This document shows positions 661 to 12,158 of a stretch of 36,730 nt of DNA, in pieces. The notes below the pieces were generated by a model that was not told where the DNA came from, did no database searches, and was given only the letters and a program-made list of their open reading frames with translations. This DNA is from a virus. How positions within the stretch are numbered: the first letter of the stretch is position 1; every line of letters begins with the position of its first letter. The position numbers and the translations under genes were made by a program. The stretch lies in the IMG/VR virus record IMGVR_UViG_3300017949_000025, positions 1 to 36,730 of that record; one strand, written 5' to 3'.

Positions 661-1599
661 CTATGTAAACTCCACGTTAGCCATTATTTCAGTCATACAG
701 GCTACTACGTTTAATTCGTGATCTGCAACAAAAGCATTTTTATATTGATAATCAGCTAAGATAAGAACAAGTGCTGGTATAGATTGTGGCTTTATATGAT
801 CTGTCATTCTATCATATATACCACGGAAGATTGATGATGCATCTGTATCAATATTATTTACAACCCATGATCGCATTTTCTTAAAGTCTTTATTCTTAAG
901 AAAATCCATAAGACTCTTATAAGATTGATCGCCAATATTGATAAGAATACCAGAATCAATTTTTCCACCAATGGAATATCTTTGGACTTCATTTAGAATA
1001 CGTCTCCAATCTGGACCATATTTCATAATGAGCTCAGCTAAAATTTTATTTTCAAATTCTACATTTTCTTTCTTTAAAATGGTTTGAAGTCGAGATAGCA
1101 TTTGAGCAGCCAAAGGGGCCATATCTTTTTTAGATGTATTAAACTCATAAACAGAACATCTCGAATGAAGTGGTTCAATAATTCTATTCTTAAAATTACA
1201 AGTAAGAATAAATCTACAATTATTTGAAAATTCTTCTATGAATCCCCGCAAAGCAGGTTGGGTGCTCTGGGGGTTCAAATAATCAGCCTCATCGAGAATG
1301 ACTACTTTATACCCGCCTTGCAGGGAAACAGAAGAAGCAAATTGTTTTATCTTAGTTCTAAGAGTATCAATATTGCCTTCTTCTGAACCGTTAACTAAAA
1401 TGTAATCAAGTTCTAATTCATTACATAATGCTTTAGCTACAGTTGTTTTACCAAGACCGGCAGTCCCAGAAAAAAGCATATTAGGCAATTCACCGGACTT
1501 GATAATATTTTGAAAAATAGTTTTTAGATTAGGTGTTAGGATAGTATCTTCAATAGTTGCTGGGCGATATTTTTCTACCCACAAAAAATCACTGTTCAT
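661..1599 (-). CDS. 44: Sliding clamp loader large subunit gp44 (AAA+ ATPase)
   Basis: 312 aa, close to the T4 gp44 length (319). ATPase that opens the gp45 clamp and loads it on primer-template DNA in the phage replisome. Visible AAA+ features: N-terminal WVEKYRPATIED (box II-like), Walker A GTAGLGKT (45-52), Walker B with DEAD (103-106), sensor 1 LTCNF (132-136) and the SRC motif (146-148) that supplies the arginine finger in clamp loaders. The start at 1599 has an AAGGAT ribosome-binding site about 8 nt upstream. It lies downstream of gp45 and a 66-aa protein. The small loader subunit gp62, which follows gp44 in T4, is not next to it; guaC is there instead. Confidence 0.96.
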   Translation of the reverse strand: MNSDFLWVEKYRPATIEDTILTPNLKTIFQNIIKSGELPNMLFSGTAGLGKTTVAKALCNELELDYILVNGSEEGNIDTLRTKIKQFASSVSLQGGYKVVILDEADYLNPQSTQPALRGFIEEFSNNCRFILTCNFKNRIIEPLHSRCSVYEFNTSKKDMAPLAAQMLSRLQTILKKENVEFENKILAELIMKYGPDWRRILNEVQRYSIGGKIDSGILINIGDQSYKSLMDFLKNKDFKKMRSWVVNNIDTDASSIFRGIYDRMTDHIKPQSIPALVLILADYQYKNAFVADHELNVVACMTEIMANVEFT

Positions 1600-1621: not shown

Positions 1622-1822
1622 TTAATCTTCGGCTTGTTCTTGTTTCCAATTTTCTACAACTTGCACACCTTGTGTACACTGGTCACGTAGGTTACCAATA
1701 GTAGACAATTCTTCTCCACGAAAACCGCCACGTTGTGTAATAGTATCAATAATAGCAATTGAACTACGGGCAATTTGATTCAAAAGTTCCATTGCTCGTT
1801 TTTGATCTTCTTTATCAGACAT
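1622..1822 (-). CDS. Small protein between clamp and clamp loader genes, unknown
   Basis: 66 aa, charged, predicted mostly helical, with no motif I recognise (it ends in an acidic tail EQEQAED-like stretch, KQEQAED). It sits 3 nt after the gp45 stop and 22 nt before the gp44 start on the minus strand, so it is part of the clamp operon. T4 has no gene between 45 and 44. Its position suggests a replisome accessory role, but nothing in the sequence shows one. It is far too short to be an ordinary gp62 (187 aa in T4). Confidence 0.75.
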   Translation of the reverse strand: MSDKEDQKRAMELLNQIARSSIAIIDTITQRGGFRGEELSTIGNLRDQCTQGVQVVENWKQEQAED

Positions 1823-1825
1823 TTA

Positions 1826-2500
1826 TTATTCTCCGTATGTTGATGTCTTTTCAAGGGCAATCCAGTACATAAGATCACCAGTACTTTTAGTAAATTTAGA
1901 AATTAGTTTTGAAGAAATTTCTACTTCATAATCTCCTTGATCAATTTTTAAATTAGAAATATTAAAAATAAAATTGTATTTATCAGTGTTAGAACTACCT
2001 TCCACATCAATAGAAAAACTATTTGCAGTAGCATTTTCACCTGATGTAACAACTAAACTTACACTTGATCCACTAGGTCTCACATGTAATTCACCATGAC
2101 CAAGAGCAGATGCTGCTCTTTTTACTTTATTTAAAGTATCTCCGTCAAGAGTAAACCTTATATCTGTATCTGGCATTTTTACTTCTTTTGAAGGAGAAGT
2201 TAATATTTCAGTATCAGAATAAAAATATTTTATCTTTGATCTTCCAGTAGAATCTCCAATAATAACATAATCTTGTTCAAAATTAAGCCGTGGCGAATCT
2301 ACCAAACCAAGGACACCCAAAAATTCATTTAGATCATAAATACCAAATGTTCTTGGAAAGGTTTCCTTAATTTCAGCCTTAGAAAGAATATTTTTTGCTT
2401 CAGAGATAGTTTGAAGTGTATTGCCTTCATTAATAACTAAATTTGAATTTATTGAAGCATAATTCTTTAACACCGAAAGTGTTGATTCACTAAGTTCCAT
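1826..2500 (-). CDS. 45: DNA polymerase sliding clamp gp45
   Basis: 224 aa from the chosen start (T4 gp45 is 228 aa). Trimeric processivity clamp for the phage polymerase; in T4 it also activates late transcription together with gp55 and gp33. The N-terminus MELSESTLSVLKNYASINSN aligns by eye with T4 gp45 MKLSKDTTALLKNFATINSG, and IYDLNEFLGVLGLV and the FIFNISNLKI..GDYEVEI block near the end also match. An ATG 21 nt further upstream (2521) is possible, but a GGAGAA ribosome-binding site lies 8 nt before the ATG at 2498-2500 and homology starts there. It has its own sigma70-type promoter in the gap after pckA, so it can be expressed apart from the gp46-pckA transcript. Confidence 0.95.
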   Translation of the reverse strand: MELSESTLSVLKNYASINSNLVINEGNTLQTISEAKNILSKAEIKETFPRTFGIYDLNEFLGVLGLVDSPRLNFEQDYVIIGDSTGRSKIKYFYSDTEILTSPSKEVKMPDTDIRFTLDGDTLNKVKRAASALGHGELHVRPSGSSVSLVVTSGENATANSFSIDVEGSSNTDKYNFIFNISNLKIDQGDYEVEISSKLISKFTKSTGDLMYWIALEKTSTYGE

Positions 2501-2533
2501 TATAATTTTTCTCCATTTCATAAAACATAGCTA

Positions 2534-2565: not shown

Positions 2566-3765
2566 TTATTTTCCATATCTATCAATTAATTTTTCTAACA
2601 TATTAGGTATATCATTATTAATACTATAACCTATATCTATTGCAGTCTTTACTGTTTTACGAGTAAAATCTAAAGCATATCTATTACCATTAGTATCCAT
2701 ACCAGTGTTGATTAAATAAACATTACATTCGTGTTTCCGAACCTTTTTCATTAATAAATCACTATACTCTTTTACTGCTCTCGGCATAAATGGTGATCCA
2801 TAGCATGGGCTAAATAATGGTTTTATTTCTTCAGATCCTGCTTCAGTACCTGGCATTTGACTGGTATAACCCGTTTCAAAGAAACGCTTTACTGCCTTAT
2901 CATCAATCTTAGATACTGGTGGAAAGGTACCAGTTGCATCCATAGTTAAGAAAAATATATTATCTGGGTGACCAAAATCTTCATTACTATAATATGCATT
3001 TTCAACAGAAGTTATAGGATAACTTAATCTAGCATTTGATACACCAGGATTTTCTATTACTAAACATTCTTTTTTTCTAGCATCTTCAACAGCATAAAAA
3101 ATAGTATGATGAGTTTCTGGAGTCAGACCTTCACTTTTAGCATAGCAGCCCGTTTCTACCATATGAATGCCAGTATCATCCCAGTAAACTTCATCATCAC
3201 TAATTAGTTTATATTCTGGATCACTACTTAATGTGGTTTTACCAGTACCACTTAATCCAAACATAAGATTAGTTGTATCATTATATGTAAATGCACTACA
3301 ATGCATAGGTAGAATATCTTTTTCTGGTAATTCAAAACTAATAATACCAAAGATACCTTTTTTAATTTCTCCTAAAAATGTAGTACCACAAATTAACATA
3401 ACATGTTCATCTAAATTAACATAGATATATGGTTTATCAACTACCATTTCCGTATTATGAATAATTGTCCAATCGGCAGTGTATTGTAAAGGATTATCTA
3501 CTACTGGAAACATATTACGAACAAACTGTGCGTGTCTATCATCATTAGTTTCTACACGAAAACATAAACCGGCAGTATAAAATACAAGATTGTGAGAATA
3601 GTCCATAAGATCCATTCTCATACGCATTACTTCATAATCTTCTAAATTTCCAATTTTATTATATTTGGGTCTAGTTAAATCAAGATGTTTTGTTTTTTCT
3701 CCTAAAAAATATTTATTTTCTGGGCTTCTACCTGTAGGTTTGGTTGTTATTTCAATATTTGGCAT
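2566..3765 (-). CDS. pckA: ATP-type phosphoenolpyruvate carboxykinase (phage-encoded, compact)
   Basis: 399 aa; bacterial ATP-type PEPCKs are about 540 aa. The family converts oxaloacetate plus ATP to PEP, CO2 and ADP. The family's signature blocks are present in order: substrate-binding TGRSPENKY with Arg13 (E. coli Arg65), GEIKKGIF with Lys135/Lys136 (Lys212/213), MHCSA with His155 (His232), kinase-1 P-loop GLSGTGKTTLS (170-180), kinase-2 ISDDEVYWDD (188-197), ETGCYAKSEGL, RLSYPI with Arg246 (Arg333), FLTMDATGTFPPVSKI, GYTSQMPGTEAG, and the nucleotide-binding end NRYALDFTR (Arg362, Thr368). The residue matching Tyr207 is Phe130. The missing length is about 50 aa at the N-terminus plus shorter loops. 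Its ATG overlaps the gp46 stop (TAATG), so it is translationally coupled to a core recombination gene. Activity is inferred, not shown. Confidence 0.95.
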   Translation of the reverse strand: MPNIEITTKPTGRSPENKYFLGEKTKHLDLTRPKYNKIGNLEDYEVMRMRMDLMDYSHNLVFYTAGLCFRVETNDDRHAQFVRNMFPVVDNPLQYTADWTIIHNTEMVVDKPYIYVNLDEHVMLICGTTFLGEIKKGIFGIISFELPEKDILPMHCSAFTYNDTTNLMFGLSGTGKTTLSSDPEYKLISDDEVYWDDTGIHMVETGCYAKSEGLTPETHHTIFYAVEDARKKECLVIENPGVSNARLSYPITSVENAYYSNEDFGHPDNIFFLTMDATGTFPPVSKIDDKAVKRFFETGYTSQMPGTEAGSEEIKPLFSPCYGSPFMPRAVKEYSDLLMKKVRKHECNVYLINTGMDTNGNRYALDFTRKTVKTAIDIGYSINNDIPNMLEKLIDRYGK

Positions 3766-5483
3766 TATGCCACCATCTTACTGAAGTTTTTCTCTTTTCT
3801 AAACTCCAGCTTTTCTTCAAATTTTCCATCAAGTATTTCTCCTTTATGAGATATAACAAAAACATTTGTATCATCATCAAGAGTATGTAGGATTTTCATA
3901 AGATTATCTACACCATCATGATCTAAAGATGAATCAAAAGTTTCATCTAATATAAGTAAATTAGTGGCTACAGAATTTTTCATTTTGGCTATCATGCGCC
4001 AAGTAAATAATAATGCAAGATCTATTCTTTGTTTTTCTCCTTCAGAAAAAGAATCATATGAAAAAGCATCTCTATGACGGGATCTAATAGTTTCTTGGAA
4101 ACTTTCATCTAAATTAAAATGAACAAAGAAATCAAGAACTTGAAGATATTGATTCACGAGTTTATTGATAACAGGTATGTATTGTTTAATGACTTTAGTT
4201 TTAATACCCGTATCTTTAAGCATTTCTGCCATAACATTATTATAAGAATATTCTTCATTAAGTTCTAATTTAAATTCCATTAAATTATTTCTTTCTTCAA
4301 TCATATTATTAAGTTCTTCGTTGGCTTCACCTATATCGCCTTCTCTGGAACTTAATCTTTCAATATCCTTATTTAAACTTTGTATTTGAGAAAGTAAAGA
4401 TTCTATGGTTTGATTATTACCATTTATCTTAGATTGAAAATCACGAATTTTTTCTGTTTGTATATTCCAATATTCCAATCTTTCTGTTAATTCTTTATTT
4501 TTTTCTTCAAGTAAATCCATCTGTTTTTTGATATCAAGTGCATTATGTTTACACTCTTCAATCTTTTTTGATTTAAGTTCTGGATCTATGACTTGCGAAC
4601 ACGTCGGGCAGTTATCATTCTTTTCATAAAATTTCGATTCTTTAACAATTGACTTAATGGTTGATGTCGCAGTAGCCTTATCGTGCAGAATGGACTGTTT
4701 CTCATCATTGGCTTCTTTAAGTGCATCTCTTGTGTTTTCGGCAGAGTCTTGAATAAAACTCGAAAATTCGGCATTTGAATGGTGTAATCCTTCGATGTTC
4801 TTTTGTACTTCGGATATTTTTTCTTTTTTATCATTAATCTCATCCTCATTTATTTGAGTTATATCTCTGATATATTTTCTCTGAGATTCTAGTTTGTTAT
4901 TTAATATATCTAATTGATATGAATTATCTTTTAACTTTTCTTTTAAAATACTATTTTTTTCTTTTATGAGAATGTTCATCTTTGAAAAAACATTAATGTC
5001 CAGAAGATCCTCAATTACATCTCTCCTATGTTGTGCAGGGAGTTGCATGAAAGGAATAAAGGAAGAGGAACCAAGCACAACAATTTGATGAAAGCTTTTA
5101 TGATTAAGCTTAATAATGTTTTGTTCAAGGATCTTCTGGTACTCCTTGGCATGAGAAGATTGATTAATCATCTCACCATTTTTCCATATTTCAAATATTT
5201 GCGGTTTAATACCACGAACAACTTTAAAAATAGACTTTCCTATAATAAATTCTACTTCTACAATACTATCTTTATTATTAATTGTATTAACCAATTGTGG
5301 TTTATTAATATTACGATGAGGCTTGCCAAACAAAGCAAAAGAAAGAGCATCAAGAATTGTTGACTTTCCGGCACCATTCTGCCCTACTATAAGAGTGGAT
5401 TTTGATTTATTAAGACTAATATTTGTCCAATTATTACCTGTCGATAAAAAGTTTTTATATCGAATAGATTTAAAAATAATCAT
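3765..5483 (-). CDS. 46: Recombination endonuclease subunit gp46 (Rad50/SbcC-like)
   Basis: 572 aa (T4 gp46 is 560 aa). SMC-like ATPase that works with gp47 to resect DNA ends for recombination-dependent replication and host DNA degradation. Visible: Walker A GQNGAGKST (34-42), a long charged coiled coil interrupted by the zinc-hook CPTC (292-295), ABC signature FSEGEKQR (479-486) and Walker B LLILDETFD (509-517) with the following D-loop SSLD. The start codon overlaps the stop of a 37-aa micro-ORF, and its own stop overlaps the pckA start, both as TAATG. Confidence 0.97.
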   Translation of the reverse strand: MIIFKSIRYKNFLSTGNNWTNISLNKSKSTLIVGQNGAGKSTILDALSFALFGKPHRNINKPQLVNTINNKDSIVEVEFIIGKSIFKVVRGIKPQIFEIWKNGEMINQSSHAKEYQKILEQNIIKLNHKSFHQIVVLGSSSFIPFMQLPAQHRRDVIEDLLDINVFSKMNILIKEKNSILKEKLKDNSYQLDILNNKLESQRKYIRDITQINEDEINDKKEKISEVQKNIEGLHHSNAEFSSFIQDSAENTRDALKEANDEKQSILHDKATATSTIKSIVKESKFYEKNDNCPTCSQVIDPELKSKKIEECKHNALDIKKQMDLLEEKNKELTERLEYWNIQTEKIRDFQSKINGNNQTIESLLSQIQSLNKDIERLSSREGDIGEANEELNNMIEERNNLMEFKLELNEEYSYNNVMAEMLKDTGIKTKVIKQYIPVINKLVNQYLQVLDFFVHFNLDESFQETIRSRHRDAFSYDSFSEGEKQRIDLALLFTWRMIAKMKNSVATNLLILDETFDSSLDHDGVDNLMKILHTLDDDTNVFVISHKGEILDGKFEEKLEFRKEKNFSKMVA

Positions 5484-5596
5484 TATCTCTGCCTTATTTC
5501 TTTTTTAGATTTTTGTCTATCTTTTTTCTTGGCAGCTTTCTTAAAAGCTTTTTCCCATTTCTTTGATAAACAGCTTATCTTTTCACGTTTTGGCAT
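5483..5596 (-). CDS. 37-aa lysine-rich micro-ORF between gp47 and gp46
   Basis: Minus-strand ORF of 37 codons plus stop, beginning MPKREKISCL and very rich in Lys and Arg (about 17 of 37 residues), with one Trp and one Cys. Its ATG overlaps the gp47 stop by one base (TAATG) and its TAA overlaps the gp46 ATG in the same way. It fills the gap between the two genes exactly, which argues for a real translated gene. A basic peptide coupled to a nuclease complex could bind nucleic acid or mainly serve translational coupling; neither is shown. Confidence 0.7.
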   Translation of the reverse strand: MPKREKISCLSKKWEKAFKKAAKKKDRQKSKKEIRQR

Positions 5597-6657
5597 TAAA
5601 CTATTTCCATAGACTGTGCTTCTGTTAAAAGTTTTCTCATATTTACTTTTATTTTATCTTTATCAAGATCAGTTTCAACTGCATCAACATAACTATCTAA
5701 TAGCATTTCGGTGTCCTCTAAAGAGATATTTTCATCTTCAACATTTTCTCCGATAAACTCATTAAAGTTTTCTGCAATTTTTAATTCATGAATCTTTCTA
5801 TTTTGTATTCTATCAATAAAACGGTCAAATGTAAAGAGGTCAGATTTATTAATTACAACTATTTTTACAAATTTATAATCTAAATGATCTACATTATATT
5901 CTGAATAATTCCTTTTTGAATCATCATATATTATTTTTTCAAATAAAGTATATGGATTTCTAATAGCTTCCATTTCTCTTGTTTCGGTATCTATTACATG
6001 AAAATATTTAGGATCATGAGCATCTGACCAGAAAAATTCCATTTGTGTTCCTAAATAAATTACATTATCTTTATGTGATTTAGTATGGAAATGACCAGAT
6101 AAAACTTTTTCAAATCTTGAAAAAACAGAGTGATCCATACCATGTTTATTTACAACTCCTCTCATAAGATCAAATCCTGTTAATTCAAGATGCCCGCCCA
6201 GCCAATCAGCTTTACAGTTTTTAATAAATTCCATAGATTTATCATAATTCTCTTGGGTAATCCAGGGTAACATTGCAATTTTAAGTGAGCCGTATTCAAG
6301 AACACGTGGGTCCATAATAATATTAATTTCGTTCATAAAATGGCCGAGTAGTTCTTTTAGGCTATTTAAATCGTTTGTATTTTTATAATAGGTATCATGA
6401 TTACCAGGTATAATATCCATAGTCATACCATAATCACGTAGATGTGATAAAAAATGTTTCCTATTATGATTTAACGCCCTAAAATTAACAAATTTACGAT
6501 GATCATAATAATCACCAAGATGAATAATTTGCTTAATATCATTTTCTTTACAATATGGGAAAAAGATGTTTTCATAAAAATCTGCTGCATTATTTAAAAA
6601 CACATCAGAACTATTCCTGATACCGCAATGAGTATCATTTAATACTGCTATTTTCAT
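5596..6657 (-). CDS. 47: Recombination endonuclease subunit gp47 (Mre11/SbcD-like)
   Basis: 353 aa (T4 gp47 is 339 aa). Metallophosphoesterase nuclease partner of gp46. Phosphoesterase motifs appear in order: NDTHCG (7-12, with D8 and H10), HLGDYYDHRK (metal-bridging Asp), PGNHDTYY, GGHLELTGF and LSGHFHTKS, together forming the two-metal site. It starts 7 nt after the gp55 stop and ends in a TAATG junction with the micro-ORF that precedes gp46, so the two nuclease subunits are expressed together. Confidence 0.96.
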   Translation of the reverse strand: MKIAVLNDTHCGIRNSSDVFLNNAADFYENIFFPYCKENDIKQIIHLGDYYDHRKFVNFRALNHNRKHFLSHLRDYGMTMDIIPGNHDTYYKNTNDLNSLKELLGHFMNEINIIMDPRVLEYGSLKIAMLPWITQENYDKSMEFIKNCKADWLGGHLELTGFDLMRGVVNKHGMDHSVFSRFEKVLSGHFHTKSHKDNVIYLGTQMEFFWSDAHDPKYFHVIDTETREMEAIRNPYTLFEKIIYDDSKRNYSEYNVDHLDYKFVKIVVINKSDLFTFDRFIDRIQNRKIHELKIAENFNEFIGENVEDENISLEDTEMLLDSYVDAVETDLDKDKIKVNMRKLLTEAQSMEIV

Positions 6658-6664
6658 TTATATA

Positions 6665-7261
6665 TTATTCCAAAAAATCCGATAAATCAGAGTCTACATT
6701 AATTGCTCTTTTCTTTTTATTTTTTATTTTCTTTGAAAAGGTTTTAATTTCTGTATCATAAGCTTTTACTTTATCAATTCTATCTTTTAATGTATCTATA
6801 AAGTGATTAGCCACTTGAGATGATGGGTCTGTTGTACCAAGTTCTGTTACTAGGAAAGCATCAATTCCTGATTGTGCTAAATATTTTTCTTTAATATCTT
6901 GTTGTTTCTTTTCTTTTGTAATTCTTCGTAAAAAAGCATACCATATAATTTGAGTGAAATAAGCAAAAGCATTTGGTTTACCTGATCTTGTTGTTGCATT
7001 TATATCATAATTTTCTATTGCTTTTAAACAGTTTTCAACTGCATCCATTACCATTTCTTCACGATATGTATATCTAATAAAATTGGATTTATGGGATAAA
7101 TTTTCAGCAATTTGTAAAAAGCTTTTAGCTATATAATCTGGGACAACAGGCAAAGTTTCATTGCTTTCCTTTGCCACAGTAACTTTTTTAACATAATCAA
7201 CAATAGCCAGAGAAAATTCTGAATTATTAATATAGTGTACGTTTTTTGTTTTCTTTACCAT
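6665..7261 (-). CDS. 55: Late-transcription sigma factor gp55
   Basis: 198 aa (T4 gp55 is 185 aa). Directs host RNA polymerase to late promoters with a TATAAATA box and couples late transcription to the gp45 clamp in T4. The central stretch NAFAYFTQIIWYAFLRRI (with KPNAF before it and KEKK after it) matches the conserved region-2-like core of gp55. A perfect TTTACA-17-TATAAT promoter lies just upstream, so it can be made early by the host polymerase. Several late boxes that it could recognise lie in this window. Confidence 0.93.
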   Translation of the reverse strand: MVKKTKNVHYINNSEFSLAIVDYVKKVTVAKESNETLPVVPDYIAKSFLQIAENLSHKSNFIRYTYREEMVMDAVENCLKAIENYDINATTRSGKPNAFAYFTQIIWYAFLRRITKEKKQQDIKEKYLAQSGIDAFLVTELGTTDPSSQVANHFIDTLKDRIDKVKAYDTEIKTFSKKIKNKKKRAINVDSDLSDFLE

Positions 7262-7829: not shown

Positions 7830-9334
7830 ATTGGAACCTTATAGAATTTAAAATTAAATTTTTCTTTTTTATAAATTTTTAATCTTTCTTCGCTATGCAA
7901 AAGTGCATAATTTTTTCTCGATTTATATTTAAAATCGTCAGCTATATCATAGAGTCTAGTATTTGATCCATCTTCCGATTTCCGAAGTCCCCTACCAATA
8001 GACTGTAGGACCTTGATTTGTGACTTTGAAGGACTTGCAAAAATAATATTGTGCAAATTCCGTATGTTAATGCCAGTACTAAAAGTACCAAGACTAGCAA
8101 CAATGATAGCATCTTTTTGTCCTTCTGTTATTTTTCTAATAGCTTCTCTATCAGAAGTTTCAGTAGCACCACTTACAAAAAATACTTTTCTACCTTCTTT
8201 AGCTTTAGTATTTATTAAATCAAAAAGAGGTTTTCCATGTTTTTCAACAAACTGAAATAAAACTAATGTATTACCTTTTTGATCTAAAGCAAGATTCCTT
8301 ATAAACTTATTTCTTTGTTCATATTTAACAATATAGTCTATTTCATCTTGATATTGTAATCCTACTATTTGTTTTTTAATTTCTTCGCTATACTGAAGTT
8401 GTATCATAAAAATTTCTAAATCTGCAAGTGTCTGATTATCTTGTAGAGTCTTGGTTGTAGTAACTTTCATTACCTTGCCAAAAAGACCTTCTAATACAAG
8501 TTGATGAGTTTGTGTTCCATCTAATGTGCCTGTAGTACCAAATCTATATTCAGCAAGTCTACATTTATTCATTATATTTGTAAGAGATTTTGATTTAAAT
8601 CCATGACATTCATCTCCTAAAACCATACCAAACTGATCAAACCAGGCAGCTGGCATTTTATATATTGATTGCCATGTACTTATACAAATAGCACTTTCAA
8701 AATCTTTATCTTTACCAGAGTATATTTTATGCATACCTTCTGGTTTTTGTCCATAATCTATAAAATCACCATACATTTGTTCTACTAAAGATGTTGTCGG
8801 AACAATGATTAATACTCTTCCCGCTCTTGGATATTTCCAACCATCTGTTAGCATTTGTAACCAATATTTAGATAAACAATATAAAATTAAAGATTTTCCA
8901 GATCCTGTAGGAGATAAAAGTATTGATCTTTTTCTTTTTAATCCTTCGCATATTGCATTAAATTGGTAATCTCTAATAGAAATAGATTCACCTTTACTTT
9001 TTAGATTAAGATTTTTTATAAAATTCATTATATCATTTGGATTTATTTCATTATATGATTCAGGTAATCCAAATTGGCTTTCTTCATATTCTAATTGATA
9101 ATTTCTTTTTTCACAAAAATCTTTTACATAAGATATAAGACCACAAGAAAGTTCACAATTATTTACATTAAATAATCTTATTTTGCCGTCCCATACCTTA
9201 TTTTTATATAAAGGCATAAATTTATAACCAGGAACAAAGAAAGAAAAATAATCAGATAATTCTTGAGCAATACCCCAATCACATCCAATAATCATATTTG
9301 CATGATCTTTCTTTTGTATTTTAACTATATCCAC
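7826..9334 (-). CDS. uvsW: RNA-DNA/DNA helicase UvsW
   Basis: 502 aa, the same size class as T4 UvsW (503 aa). Superfamily 2 helicase that unwinds branched DNA and R-loops and, in T4, shifts replication from origin-dependent to recombination-dependent mode. Motifs in order: Q-region RDYQFNAI, motif I LSPTGSGKSLI, motif Ia LIIVPTTSLVEQM, motif II DECHGFKS, motif III GTTGTLDG, motif V GTFSTGINI and motif VI QSIGRGLRKS. It starts one base into the uvsY stop region, placing it directly behind the recombination mediator. Confidence 0.95.
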   Translation of the reverse strand: MDIVKIQKKDHANMIIGCDWGIAQELSDYFSFFVPGYKFMPLYKNKVWDGKIRLFNVNNCELSCGLISYVKDFCEKRNYQLEYEESQFGLPESYNEINPNDIMNFIKNLNLKSKGESISIRDYQFNAICEGLKRKRSILLSPTGSGKSLILYCLSKYWLQMLTDGWKYPRAGRVLIIVPTTSLVEQMYGDFIDYGQKPEGMHKIYSGKDKDFESAICISTWQSIYKMPAAWFDQFGMVLGDECHGFKSKSLTNIMNKCRLAEYRFGTTGTLDGTQTHQLVLEGLFGKVMKVTTTKTLQDNQTLADLEIFMIQLQYSEEIKKQIVGLQYQDEIDYIVKYEQRNKFIRNLALDQKGNTLVLFQFVEKHGKPLFDLINTKAKEGRKVFFVSGATETSDREAIRKITEGQKDAIIVASLGTFSTGINIRNLHNIIFASPSKSQIKVLQSIGRGLRKSEDGSNTRLYDIADDFKYKSRKNYALLHSEERLKIYKKEKFNFKFYKVPI

Positions 9335-9795
9335 TAAAAACCACCAGCCTCAAATTGTTTCCATTTTATAATATTACTTATTGTCTGGTGTTTCCAATTA
9401 ATATTAGAAACAATTTCTGTTAAAGTTTCAACTAAAGTTTTATAATAAGTAATCTTTTCTTCACTTGCTTGTATATCTATATCTGAATCATAAATGTGAT
9501 TCATATCACCTTTCATAACTTTAACACCATTATATGGATCATAATCCCAACCTCTTTCATCCATTTCTTCTTGTGACATTTTATTTGTATAATAAAGCCA
9601 TTTATCTTTAAGTAGAATTTTTTGATTTAGTTCAGTTTTTTTCAATTGTAATTTTGCTATTGAAAGATACTGTAAATATTTTGAATGAAGTTTTGCTATT
9701 TGTATAGATGATCTATCTAAGTGGTGTTCATCTATTTCACTATCTTTTGACCATTCATTAAGTATGTTTTCAAGATTCAACACATATGTCTCCAT
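9334..9795 (-). CDS. uvsY: Recombination mediator UvsY
   Basis: 153 aa (T4 UvsY is 137 aa). Loads the UvsX recombinase on gp32-coated single-stranded DNA. The pattern LNEWSKDSEIDEHHLDRSS, then LHSKYLQYL, then LKDKWLYYTNKMSQEEMDERGWDYDP is typical of UvsY in marine T4-like phages, and the protein is helical throughout. A GGAG ribosome-binding site precedes the ATG. It is directly upstream of uvsW, the normal T4-group pairing. UvsX itself is not in this window. Confidence 0.9.
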   Translation of the reverse strand: METYVLNLENILNEWSKDSEIDEHHLDRSSIQIAKLHSKYLQYLSIAKLQLKKTELNQKILLKDKWLYYTNKMSQEEMDERGWDYDPYNGVKVMKGDMNHIYDSDIDIQASEEKITYYKTLVETLTEIVSNINWKHQTISNIIKWKQFEAGGF

Positions 9796-9816
9796 AATAA
9801 ATTTTATTAATAGTAT

Positions 9817-10314
9817 CTATACTAATTCAAAATATGATACTTTGAAGTTTACTGGAAATGTAACCACTGGTGTTTCAGTAGCGGCTGCTTCCAATAAAAG
9901 AGTTCCTATATTTGTTACTACACAATCTATATATCTAATTTTTTTAATTACATTATTATGACTGCTTAATATAGAAAGTGTTATATCTACCACATTTTGA
10001 TCTTCAGCTAAAATTTTATCTCGACTTCTTGTAGGAGTCACAACAAGACTTTCTAACCAATTATAAACTTCTGTATAACTTGTCATATTTTCATCTACAA
10101 GAACATCAAATGCTAAATCATCAACACCAAGAGTATCTCCGGGTATAGAAATACTTTGCAAACGGCTATAAGGTACTATAGGAGCCGTAACATTTACCCC
10201 AGGATGTACAACTCTTTGTGCAAAAAATTCCAAATTACCATAATTTTTTCTGTCAATAACAACTTTAAAGTTGCTAGGTTGTAGAAAATTAAAATTTTCA
10301 GTAAGATCAGCCAT
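9817..10314 (-). CDS. Tail-tube-fold structural protein (gp19-like paralogue)
   Basis: 165 aa, about the size of T4 gp19 (163 aa). The layout NFKVVIDRKNYGNLEFFAQ, then RLQSISIPGDTLGVDDLAFDVLVDE, then YNWLESLV and a beta-rich end VTFPVNFKVSYFELV resembles the tail-tube fold (compare GDRVFEPWTVTVINDTDF in the true gp19 at 23617-24162). It is most likely a second tube-fold protein, such as a tube terminator, initiator or other virion protein placed between gp23 and uvsY in marine T4-like phages. The exact T4 counterpart (gp3, gp54 or another) cannot be fixed by eye. A late-type promoter box lies 25 nt upstream. Confidence 0.75.
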   Translation of the reverse strand: MADLTENFNFLQPSNFKVVIDRKNYGNLEFFAQRVVHPGVNVTAPIVPYSRLQSISIPGDTLGVDDLAFDVLVDENMTSYTEVYNWLESLVVTPTRSRDKILAEDQNVVDITLSILSSHNNVIKKIRYIDCVVTNIGTLLLEAAATETPVVTFPVNFKVSYFELV

Positions 10315-10338
10315 ATCAATCTCCGTTGAAGTTATATC

Positions 10339-10346
10339 TATTTATA
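10339..10346 (-). promoter_or_regulatory. Late promoter box TATAAATA
   Basis: Perfect TATAAATA on the minus strand, 25 nt before the ATG of the tail-tube-like gene, in the gap between diverging genes. It matches the T4 late consensus recognised by gp55. Confidence 0.75.
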
Positions 10347-10360
10347 TTAATAAAAAGTGT

Positions 10361-10378
10361 ATTTTAGGGGTTTACAAA
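10361..10378 (+). repeat. 18-nt promoter-region repeat, copy 1
   Basis: ATTTTAGGGGTTTACAAA; an identical copy lies on the minus strand at 35627-35644. Both copies span the -35 box of a promoter and a GGGG element just upstream of it. Confidence 0.85.
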
Positions 10379-10399
10379 TACCAATTTTTAGTATATCTT
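10371..10399 (+). promoter_or_regulatory. Sigma70-type promoter for the plus-strand gene
   Basis: TTTACA (10371-10376), 17-nt spacer, TATCTT (10394-10399). It sits 28 nt before the ATG of the only plus-strand gene, and a CGGAGA ribosome-binding site lies between. Confidence 0.72.
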
Positions 10400-10427
10400 G
10401 TAAGAGTAAATAGAATCGGAGAAACTA

Positions 10428-10766
10428 ATGACACAGTTTGATAAATCAAAGTTTACATATTACGGTGGGTATCTTGAATACACAGGTACATATGAAGGTC
10501 AACCTACCTGGGATCAAGTTGTTCCTAACTGCCACCCATCACGTGTAGGTATGCCAAAAGAACTATTTATTGCTCGGTTCAAATATAAAGGGCCAATTAC
10601 AAAAGCAAAATTTGTAAAAGAACTTTGTAAATCATTTACTGTTGAAGAATATGTTGAAGCACGTAAACAAGACGGTATCAATGGCTCACCTCTTAAAATT
10701 TTAGAAAATAAAAATCCTAAGTGGGCAGAAAAGATTATGTCAGACTGGTTAAAGAAGATATCATAA
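10428..10766 (+). CDS. Plus-strand 112-aa protein of unknown function (moron-like)
   Basis: 112 aa, soluble, aromatic-rich N-terminus (TYYGGYLEYTGTYEGQPTW) and a basic, helical C-terminus (PKWAEKIMSDWLKKIS). No family recognised. It is the only gene on the plus strand, placed between the major capsid gene and the tail-tube-like gene, with its own sigma70-type promoter, ribosome-binding site and factor-independent terminator. That is the layout of an independently expressed cassette (moron), probably early and perhaps acting on the host; the role is inference. An opposing reading frame at 10514-10900 overlaps the terminators and the end of gp23 and is a shadow. Confidence 0.85.
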   Translation: MTQFDKSKFTYYGGYLEYTGTYEGQPTWDQVVPNCHPSRVGMPKELFIARFKYKGPITKAKFVKELCKSFTVEEYVEARKQDGINGSPLKILENKNPKWAEKIMSDWLKKIS

Positions 10767-10788
10767 AAAAAGCCCCACGAATGGAGCT
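10764..10788 (-). terminator. Factor-independent terminator after gp23
   Basis: On the minus strand a 7-bp stem AGCTCCA/TGGGGCT (one G-U pair, 10771-10788) closes a TTCG tetraloop and is followed by seven T (10764-10770). It would end the gp67-gp23 transcript. It overlaps the last codons and stop of the plus-strand gene. Confidence 0.85.
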
Positions 10789-10793
10789 TAGTT

Positions 10794-10819
10794 GGGAGGG
10801 TTAAACCCCTCCCTTTTTT
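10794..10819 (+). terminator. Factor-independent terminator of the plus-strand gene
   Basis: Stem GGGAGGG (10794-10800) and CCCTCCC (10807-10813), 6-nt loop, then six T (10814-10819). It ends 10 nt before the gp23 stop, so converging transcripts are each stopped. Confidence 0.9.
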
Positions 10820-10829
10820 ATTAATAATC

Positions 10830-12158
10830 TTATGCGTTAAGGATGTTATCCACGCGGAAGATGCGGTAGTACTGGTTAGACTTCGCTGCAGCAAGACCAT
10901 TTGAAGGTGTTAAACCAACAAATGGGTTTGATACCATGCCGTAACGAGTTTTAAACCCGATTTTTGGCTGGAAGTCATTTTCACCCACTGCACGTACCAT
11001 TGTAAGCGGTACATATGGGCAATAGAATACACCGGCATCATAAGCATTAGTACCTTTATAACCTACGGTTACATAGTCGGTTGTTGCATATGGGTCGATA
11101 TATACACGAGTACGTCCGTTAAGAACACCTGCAAATGTGTTTCCTGTGTCATCTACGTTCAGGTTTGTTGACATTGCCGGAGCATAGTCAAGCATACCTG
11201 TTGCTGACAAGCAAGAAGCTACGTCTGAAGATGTAATGATGAAGTTACCACGGCCTCTCCGAGTTTCTTTAGCAATAGTATTTGCTTCACGCTCGATTTG
11301 TACCATAAGACCTTTGAACTTCTCTACTGACCAACGACCGTCTGCATCATTTGCAAGATCGAATACGCCGTTAAGTGCAGTTTGTGATGTAGAAGCACCA
11401 GTTTTAGCTTGTGAGTTGATTGTGCGAATTACTTCACGGTTAATTTCCGCAAGAATTTCAGTTGACAGAATATTTGCCAGCTCTGATTCTGCATCAAGAC
11501 CATGAATCGCTTTCAAGTCTTGTGCAAGCTCAAGGCTGTACTCTGCTTTCAACGCACGTGTTTTCGCTGAAACAGTTGCTTTTTCAATGGTGAAACCCAT
11601 TTCGTTGAAGTTAGGATTAGTTGTTCCAAGTCCTTCGCCGTCTGCTGTTGGCATACCACCGCCAAAGCCATTGGTTACACGGTCGTTATCTAGTGTACTA
11701 TCTGCACCAGCATCTGTTACACCAGAAAGACCTGATGGTCCAGCTGAACCTTGAGTTGCTGAAGAATCACCACTGAAAGTAGTATCTGCTTCATTAAAGA
11801 GTGCTTCAGTTGAACTTGTTGAACCAGCACCATAGCGTGACTTCATTGCGAAGATCAGACCAGTTGGGCCCGTCATTGGCTGAACACCACATACATCATA
11901 TGCCATCATATTTGGCATTGCACGACGTACAAGAGAAATAAGGATTGGATCCCAGTTACCTACTGAACCAGTATTGTTTCCTGGTGATTCTGCCAAGAAA
12001 CCAGCTTCAGCTTGACGTTGCTCAGCAAGAGCTTTTTCTTGGTTTTCAAGAACAACAGCTGTTACTGATCTTCTGTAAGAATCATCAATTCTACCTGCTG
12101 ATTCTTCATTGAGCACTGGTGCCCATTTCTCCGTGAGATTTTTATATGTATTAGACAT
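10830..12158 (-). CDS. 23: Major capsid protein gp23
   Basis: 442 aa (T4 gp23 is 521 aa; shorter forms are usual in marine relatives). Forms the head hexamers. Typical blocks: WDPILISLVRRAMPNMMAYDVCGVQPMTGP, GLIFAMKSRYG, MGFTIEKATVSAKTRALKAEYSLELAQDLKAIHGLDAESELANILSTEI (split here by block) and the end PFVGL..YRIFRVDNI. The N-terminal stretch EAGFLAE|SPGN offers an L-x-E site after Glu57 that fits the consensus cut by the gp21 prohead protease, so the mature protein would start at Ser58. Base composition is clearly richer in GC than in neighbouring replication genes, as expected for a highly expressed gene. Confidence 0.97.
   Translation of the reverse strand: MSNTYKNLTEKWAPVLNEESAGRIDDSYRRSVTAVVLENQEKALAEQRQAEAGFLAESPGNNTGSVGNWDPILISLVRRAMPNMMAYDVCGVQPMTGPTGLIFAMKSRYGAGSTSSTEALFNEADTTFSGDSSATQGSAGPSGLSGVTDAGADSTLDNDRVTNGFGGGMPTADGEGLGTTNPNFNEMGFTIEKATVSAKTRALKAEYSLELAQDLKAIHGLDAESELANILSTEILAEINREVIRTINSQAKTGASTSQTALNGVFDLANDADGRWSVEKFKGLMVQIEREANTIAKETRRGRGNFIITSSDVASCLSATGMLDYAPAMSTNLNVDDTGNTFAGVLNGRTRVYIDPYATTDYVTVGYKGTNAYDAGVFYCPYVPLTMVRAVGENDFQPKIGFKTRYGMVSNPFVGLTPSNGLAAAKSNQYYRIFRVDNILNA

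Follow-up and report, generated by a model that had tools for sequence, protein, structure and literature searches.

The stretch of DNA analysed here (36,730 nucleotides of IMG/VR record IMGVR_UViG_3300017949_000025, referred to as the window) belongs to a marine T4-type phage and raises the question of whether a phage gene resembling cellular ATP-type PEP carboxykinase (PEPCK) encodes a working enzyme and, if so, in which direction the reaction would be used in an infected cell. Among phages, those of cyanobacteria offer the best-known cases of control over host carbon. The first-pass annotation had proposed a compact ATP-type PEPCK of 399 residues between gp46 and gp45, had considered both PEP formation and the reverse reaction, and had taken the loss of about 140 residues as a sign of long residence in the phage.

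The PEPCK open reading frame starts with ATG on the minus strand and covers exactly 2566-3765, and the corresponding frame of the plus strand is interrupted by numerous stops. In the profile search that the annotation had proposed, the product matched the Pfam family PEPCK_ATP (PF01293) with 309.6 bits against a gathering cut-off of 26.5 (E 4.7e-92), spanning profile positions 34-437 of 465. The top match in the PDB sequence search was the T. thermophilus PEPCK (1j3b, E 1e-58). The score for the NCBIfam pckA equivalog TIGR00224 was 261.6 bits, below the cut-off of 590.05, a shortfall that is partly due to the length of the protein, and PHROGs were uninformative because they hold no family for such a protein. 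The AF2 model had a pLDDT of 85.6 and a pTM of 0.87; residues 301-321, which we take to be a mobile lid loop, were the sole segment with a pLDDT below 50. The best Foldseek match of this model was 6at3, the Y207F mutant of E. coli PEPCK (E 6.9e-34), and rows 1-35 among the 50 matches listed were ATP-type PEPCKs, while VIA superimposed 380 residues on T. thermophilus 2pc9 (Z 36.7, rmsd 2.5). All 50 matches listed by both programs were PEPCKs, and HPr kinase, which had been given as an example of a different kinase fold, was absent among them. The Pfam score, the fold match and the retention of ten residues described below thus bear out the identification of an ATP-type PEPCK at this position.

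The adjacent genes, identified with Pfam and PHROGs, were T4-type on both sides (Table 1) and included, upstream of PEPCK, a UvsW-type helicase (PHROGs). The compact reading frame and its two neighbours were therefore as the annotation had described them. The TAA stop of gp46 and the ATG of PEPCK share one base (TAATG). The start of gp45 is probably the ATG at 2500, which has GGAG upstream, rather than 2521.

Table 1. Genes around the short PEPCK in the window and sites within the 399-residue protein.
Feature	Position	Strand	Basis or remark
gp44 clamp loader	661..1599	-	Pfam, PHROGs; downstream of PEPCK
66-aa ORF	1622..1822	-	No Pfam or PHROG match; kept between gp45 and gp44 in window-type relatives
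gp45 sliding clamp	1826..2521	-	Pfam, PHROGs; downstream border of insertion slot
Short ATP-type PEP carboxykinase	2566..3765	-	399 aa; Pfam, PDB sequence search, structure model, residue alignment
gp46 (SbcC-like recombination endonuclease subunit)	3765..5483	-	PHROGs; upstream of PEPCK
gp47 (SbcD-like)	5596..6657	-	PHROGs
gp55 late sigma factor	6665..7261	-	PHROGs
P-loop GLSGTGKTT	residues 170-178		Short PEPCK
Metal/catalytic residues	K135, K136, H155, D190, D191; also R13, R246, R362, T368		399-aa protein
Swaps of the short family	F130, H219		Y207F and E297H in E. coli numbering

Residue conservation was followed in an alignment of 44 short representatives and 55 longer forms, which left out L102 (a 1,011-aa frame, also left out of the tree), several long cellular loci and loci with fewer than about 330 aligned residues. 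R65, K212, K213, H232, S250, K254, T255, D268, D269 and R333 (E. coli Pck numbering), which we take to be the catalytic, metal and phosphate residues of ATP-type PEPCKs, were conserved in all 44 short representatives, and R449 and T455 in 43, the exception being truncated by a contig end. Two positions had changed throughout: Tyr207 was replaced by Phe and Glu297 by His in 44 of 44, as against Tyr207 in 54 of 55 longer forms (one X) and Glu297 in 55 of 55. The proposal that the active-site residues had been kept thus held for the ten that were checked and failed at these two. Altogether, 13 columns were diagnostic, at thresholds of at least 95% of the 44 short rows and at least 90% of the 55 longer rows. 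Tyr207 is presumably a CO2-site residue that assists CO2 binding, and Glu297 is taken to lie on the nucleotide side of the active site; since they make contact with the CO2 site and the nucleotide, the kinetics or specificity of the short enzyme may differ, and a shift in its CO2 or nucleotide handling is likely. The oxaloacetate pocket was judged from residue conservation and the fold match.

The protein has 399 residues compared with 540 in E. coli, and the loss of about 140 residues was confirmed; in the alignment with E. coli, the short form lacks about 52 residues before R65 (R13 in the short form), about 54 after R456 (R369) and about 35 internally. On sequence grounds, the ORF is an ATP-type PEPCK homologue, and it is called a variant rather than a standard member of the family because Tyr207 and Glu297 are missing in 44 of 44 representatives.

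A first scan of IMG/VR returned 53 related loci with 63-100% identity, a number that excludes chance, and a second scan with the alignment as query returned 125 relatives, the best 80 of which all had at least 63% identity. Uncut ORFs of 393-411 residues, counted from the start of the match, were present in 48 of the 53 first-scan loci; in L046 the frame was broken at 345 residues and four other copies were truncated by contig ends. In the 16 pairs chosen, pN/pS was 0.09-0.25 for 11 phage pairs and 0.06-0.10 for 3 cellular pairs, with silent sites almost saturated where the pairs were more distant, and these ratios indicate that the short family is under purifying selection. A search of 50,697 phage records gave seven matches at E ≤ 1e-5 with 29.4-36.3% identity. 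H1 (L057; UPMK_1, MG543995), with annotated PEPCK and O-succinylbenzoate synthase genes, looked like chromosomal DNA of S. aureus, H2 was LR756504, and H3-H7 were taken, on organism names alone, as Salmonella or E. coli DNA. Cellular contamination of viral metagenomes is reportedly treated in one study, a caution for findings of this kind.

The gp46/gp45 slot was occupied in 21 of the 53 first-scan loci, 20 with gp46 directly before PEPCK and one with gp46 off the contig; both genes were undetected in the DNA around the other 32. When 80 of 347 gp46 relatives were classified, 17 had PEPCK beside gp46, 58 had an empty slot, defined as a gp46-gp45 gap of less than 200 bp without PEPCK, and 5 were not classed. 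C48C1, the nearest named phage by both gp23 and gp46, has a gap of 54 bp with no PEPCK there. Five phages with an empty slot (L309, L312, L363, L364 and L369) had PEPCK elsewhere on the contig, and the gene has therefore settled at more than one place in related phages. As criteria for a viral AMG, the flanking of PEPCK by viral genes and the emptiness of the slot in related phages with the same flanking genes were both observed. A location inside the replication and recombination operon, which the annotation had emphasized, is thus a property of the window's lineage that cannot be extended to the 32 loci lacking detectable gp46 and gp45 or to the 58 of 80 gp46 relatives with an empty slot.

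The genome of the window's phage continues in G246, an 82-kb contig that contains the whole window (99.95-99.96% identity over 36,299 bases and 99.77% over 431). Approximately 8.5 kb past the right end of the window, it carries a GAPDH gene (9260-10234) followed directly by a class I FBA-like gene (10231-11043). The GAPDH passed the GAPDH-I cut-off of NCBIfam (380.1 bits, cut-off 367.2); the FBA-like protein scored 23.9 against 22.2 in Pfam and 249.2 against a cut-off of 392 for the NCBIfam aldolase, and confidence in its assignment is moderate. The position of GAPDH beside an FBA-like gene suggests gluconeogenic support of infection. The same block encodes a UDP-sulfoquinovose-synthase-like epimerase (363.1 bits, below the cut-off of 575), a sulfotransferase and an APS-kinase-like protein. 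Outside the window, these epimerase, sulfotransferase and APS-kinase-like genes of the window's phage lie with a cytidylyltransferase gene at 3286-8422 of L141, a block that could possibly serve sulfated or sulfosugar glycans.

The GAPDH and FBA-like genes were unevenly distributed. In 44 chosen records (the window, C48C1, LR756504 and 41 viral loci, the 53 having been reduced by 12 contigs that were short or duplicates), many of them fragments and several near-identical, an FBA-like gene was present in 24, GAPDH in 10 and a DAHP/KDO8P-type synthase in 3; no KDO8P/DAHP synthase was found in the window's species. The 177.5-kb record of a near relative of the window's phage (G254) has an FBA-like gene and no GAPDH, and a 62.7-kb contig with the same PEPCK (G280) has neither, although both records may be fragments. 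Visual inspection of neighbouring ORFs covered 11 loci together with 7 from the second viral scan, and chosen ORFs were tested with Pfam, NCBIfam or PHROGs. Overall, the neighbours of PEPCK included a class I FBA-like protein, GAPDH, KDO8P synthase, a KdsB-like cytidylyltransferase, a PMM-like protein and PRPP synthetase (Pfam/NCBIfam). In L030, a KDO8P synthase gene (5232-6026; NF003543, 313.2 bits, cut-off 242) overlaps the beginning of PEPCK. The locus, which continues with a KdsB-like gene, places a maker of PEP next to a user of PEP.

The short form was also found in cellular genomes. Two motifs were used to scan one genome per species and matched 28 stretches, seven of which encode a relative of the short PEPCK. 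Two were from a Neomarinimicrobiota MAG and a Flavobacteriales MAG, each with a full-length PEPCK elsewhere, and were read as misbinned phage contigs from their place in the tree (both) and their neighbours (Neomarinimicrobiota). The Neomarinimicrobiota copy is on L060, a 335-kb contig that is phage-like by its small ORFs and is perhaps a misbinned jumbo phage. The other five were from the uncultured Alphaproteobacteria AG-414-O15, AG-911-F16, AG-910-B21 and AG-404-G18, the AG-named assemblies presumably being single-cell genomes, and the MAG AH-287-M23. The short form was the only PF01293 match in these five assemblies, a status that is not absolute because the assemblies are probably incomplete. 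The genus of one of them, G003, is represented by 12 genomes, of which five had the short form only and four the full-length form only, with no PEPCK found in three. All 101 sampled genomes of the order had PEPCK, of the full-length type except in G003 (the copy in G025 is split in two), and G003 alone of 149 sampled genomes of its family matched the phage-type profile at 1e-100. The description of the enzyme as phage-encoded therefore applies to the window and to many viral loci, with the qualification that the short form is also chromosomal in one marine alphaproteobacterial genus.

The cellular genes had a constant setting. The short-form gene adjoins hprK and rapZ in four of the five cellular loci, those that span this flank, and in all five, genes for a DUF429-type protein and an acyl-CoA dehydrogenase follow it (identified with Pfam in G003). 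In the sisters G108, G110 and G112, which have full-length pckA, hprK adjoins the dehydrogenase gene with no intervening ORF of at least 60 residues except an overlapping frame in G108; the comparison leaves out G109, where no PEPCK was detected and the position of hprK was not resolved. The cellular short PEPCK is therefore an insertion relative to the sisters, whose native pckA lies on another contig than hprK. No deletion scar of the native pckA was found in the short-form genomes: the ORF downstream of the native gene, with molybdopterin-cofactor-binding domains, gave weak partial matches in four of these genomes and no match in the fifth.

In the phylogeny, which had also been proposed as a check, the short family formed its own clade apart from the longer forms, and the branch joining it to all of them measured about 2.9 substitutions per site in the first tree and 3.8 in the careful tree, from which L040 and most longer forms were omitted (14 longer forms kept). 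The diversity of the viral clade and the length of this branch support the long residence in phages that had been proposed. The cellular short copies formed one clade within an 8-row clade that includes five viral copies (support 100/100). Constraining the viral copies apart from the cellular ones gave a tree that was 8.07 log units worse and was not rejected (p-AU 0.0898), so that the direction of transfer rests on distribution and synteny; on this basis, transfer of the short PEPCK from phage to cell is favoured, although it is not proven by the tree. A search for the donor of the short family in 398 and 296 genomes at a strict limit of 1e-85 found none, returning only G003 and G002, and because of this limit the searches speak only against close relatives in that sample. 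A tentative scenario, about which our doubts slightly outweigh our confidence, is that a phage-evolved short PEPCK re-entered a marine alphaproteobacterial genus beside hprK, replaced the native full-length pckA and now controls entry into gluconeogenesis, that phages carry a portable gluconeogenic kit, some with GAPDH and FBA, and that Y207F/E297H tune the enzyme for one-way PEP production.

Taken together, the evidence makes it probable that the short PEPCK is a working, reduced ATP-type enzyme of a virus-associated family that makes PEP for gluconeogenesis in the infected cell. This reading is based on 1) homology, 2) the predicted fold, 3) the catalytic residues, 4) purifying selection and 5) the presence of GAPDH and FBA-like genes elsewhere in this genome. 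Catalytic competence is supported, by inference, by the five cellular assemblies in which the short form is the sole PEPCK detected. The phage enzyme would convert oxaloacetate and ATP to PEP, CO2 and ADP and, in a host living on TCA-cycle substrates such as amino acids and organic acids, would open a one-way entry into gluconeogenesis. With the phage GAPDH and the class I FBA-like protein, carbon would be drawn to triose and hexose phosphates, the enolase, PGM, PGK and FBPase steps being supplied by the host, and the sinks would be PRPP and nucleotides as well as nucleotide sugars for the glycan-type genes of the phage. The PEP-forming direction of flux and the benefit to the phage are inferred. 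Against this reading stand Y207F and E297H in 44 of 44 representatives, the loss of about 54 C-terminal residues, the NCBIfam pckA score below its cut-off, the moderate FBA assignment, the inconstancy of the GAPDH/FBA module and the lack of a KDO8P/DAHP synthase in the window's species.

PEPCK is reversible and runs in the carboxylating direction in some rumen bacteria, and the phage enzyme might accordingly operate mainly in reverse, converting PEP, CO2 and ADP to oxaloacetate and ATP, thereby refilling the TCA cycle (aspartate, pyrimidines) and yielding ATP. PRPP synthetase lies near PEPCK in L026 and the large subunit of ribonucleotide reductase in L043, so that nucleotide synthesis is a plausible sink. 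However, the GAPDH and FBA-like genes and the PEP-consuming KDO8P synthase of L030 suit PEP production better, and the presumed CO2-site tyrosine is gone in 44 of 44 representatives, from which weaker CO2 binding would be expected; a mainly reverse role is consequently unlikely. Slightly less likely still is a changed job, in which Y207F, E297H and the 11 other diagnostic changes would have adapted the protein to another nucleotide, oxo-acid or phosphotransfer. The 13 diagnostic columns and the joining branch of 2.9-3.8 substitutions per site fit such a change, but all ten catalytic and metal residues that were checked persist, and five cellular assemblies, one of them from an order with PEPCK in 101 of 101 sampled genomes, have the short form and no other detected PEPCK. 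That the gene is a recent host pick-up with no function under selection, or belongs to host DNA misplaced in a viral bin, is very improbable: some matches in the phage collection, such as UPMK_1, do resemble host DNA, but the window copy sits between T4-type flanks in a gp46/gp45 slot shared by 21 of 53 loci, the family is under purifying selection and 48 of 53 loci have uncut frames of 393-411 residues, and host contamination of the window was rejected.

If the gluconeogenic role of the short PEPCK is correct, a family spread over several phage contexts, some with GAPDH and FBA-like genes, would demonstrate that phages infecting heterotrophs are able to drive gluconeogenesis starting from the TCA cycle. 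Many marine phages share the short form, and, beyond what the annotation had claimed, a copy seems to serve some marine bacteria as their sole enzyme of this type. The genus with nine PEPCK-positive genomes, five short and four full-length, offers a natural experiment: can a viral enzyme take the place of a housekeeping enzyme in central metabolism? The two active-site swaps, in turn, pose a directly testable question about how a minimal PEPCK handles CO2 and chooses its nucleotide.

Virus-encoded PEPCK as such is not new. In the parts of the sources consulted, pckA was among the viral AMGs listed for trench-sediment viromes and was read as gluconeogenic (PMC12448302), and PEPCK was noted in giant viruses (PMC9270025, PMC8407384). 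These enzymes are virus-encoded and share the gluconeogenic reading proposed here; the short family, a T4-type context, the company of phage GAPDH/FBA and cellular replacement are not described in those parts (PMC12448302, PMC9270025, PMC8407384). The annotation knew of no standard T4-group gene of this kind; no description of the short family was found in the open-access literature searched, and PEPCK in viruses in general had been listed before (PMC12448302, PMC9270025). Excerpts of other reports state that lambda cI represses host pckA (PMC6359870, PMC12724203, PMC11959909), and the word 'carboxykinase' is absent from the main text, as far as available, of a 2013 ocean-virome paper (PMC4053976).

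Two other classes of phage or viral-contig enzyme were distinguished. LR756504, a 636-kb uncultured phage, and its relatives likewise encode an ATP-type PEPCK, but that of LR756504, unlike the short form, has 524 residues, keeps Tyr207 and Glu297 and falls among the cellular long forms in the tree. The full-length gene lies at 4854-6428 of L058, and the record carries no annotation. A second viral class of about 490 residues (18 representatives in one clade, among them L261, L274 and L268) also has the catalytic residues of an ATP-type PEPCK on viral contigs; unlike the short form, it keeps Tyr207 and Glu297 and forms a separate clade. Several loci of this class (L249-L294; for example L293, 2998-4470, and L278, 2959-4440) have a DNA-methyltransferase-like neighbour and L278 a thymidylate-synthase-like one, both noted by eye.

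The short form has in common with the cellular ATP-type PEPCKs (PF01293; E. coli Pck, T. thermophilus 1j3b) the fold, the P-loop, the metal ligands and the arginines presumed to form the oxaloacetate site, and differs from them in being about 140 residues shorter, in its 34% identity to the E. coli enzyme, in Y207F and E297H, and in forming its own clade. The carbon-metabolism AMGs of cyanophages include talC, cp12, gnd and zwf. There, as proposed here, T4-type marine phages redirect central carbon, but the cyanophage genes act on the pentose phosphate/Calvin route, whereas the short PEPCK would provide an entry from the TCA cycle.
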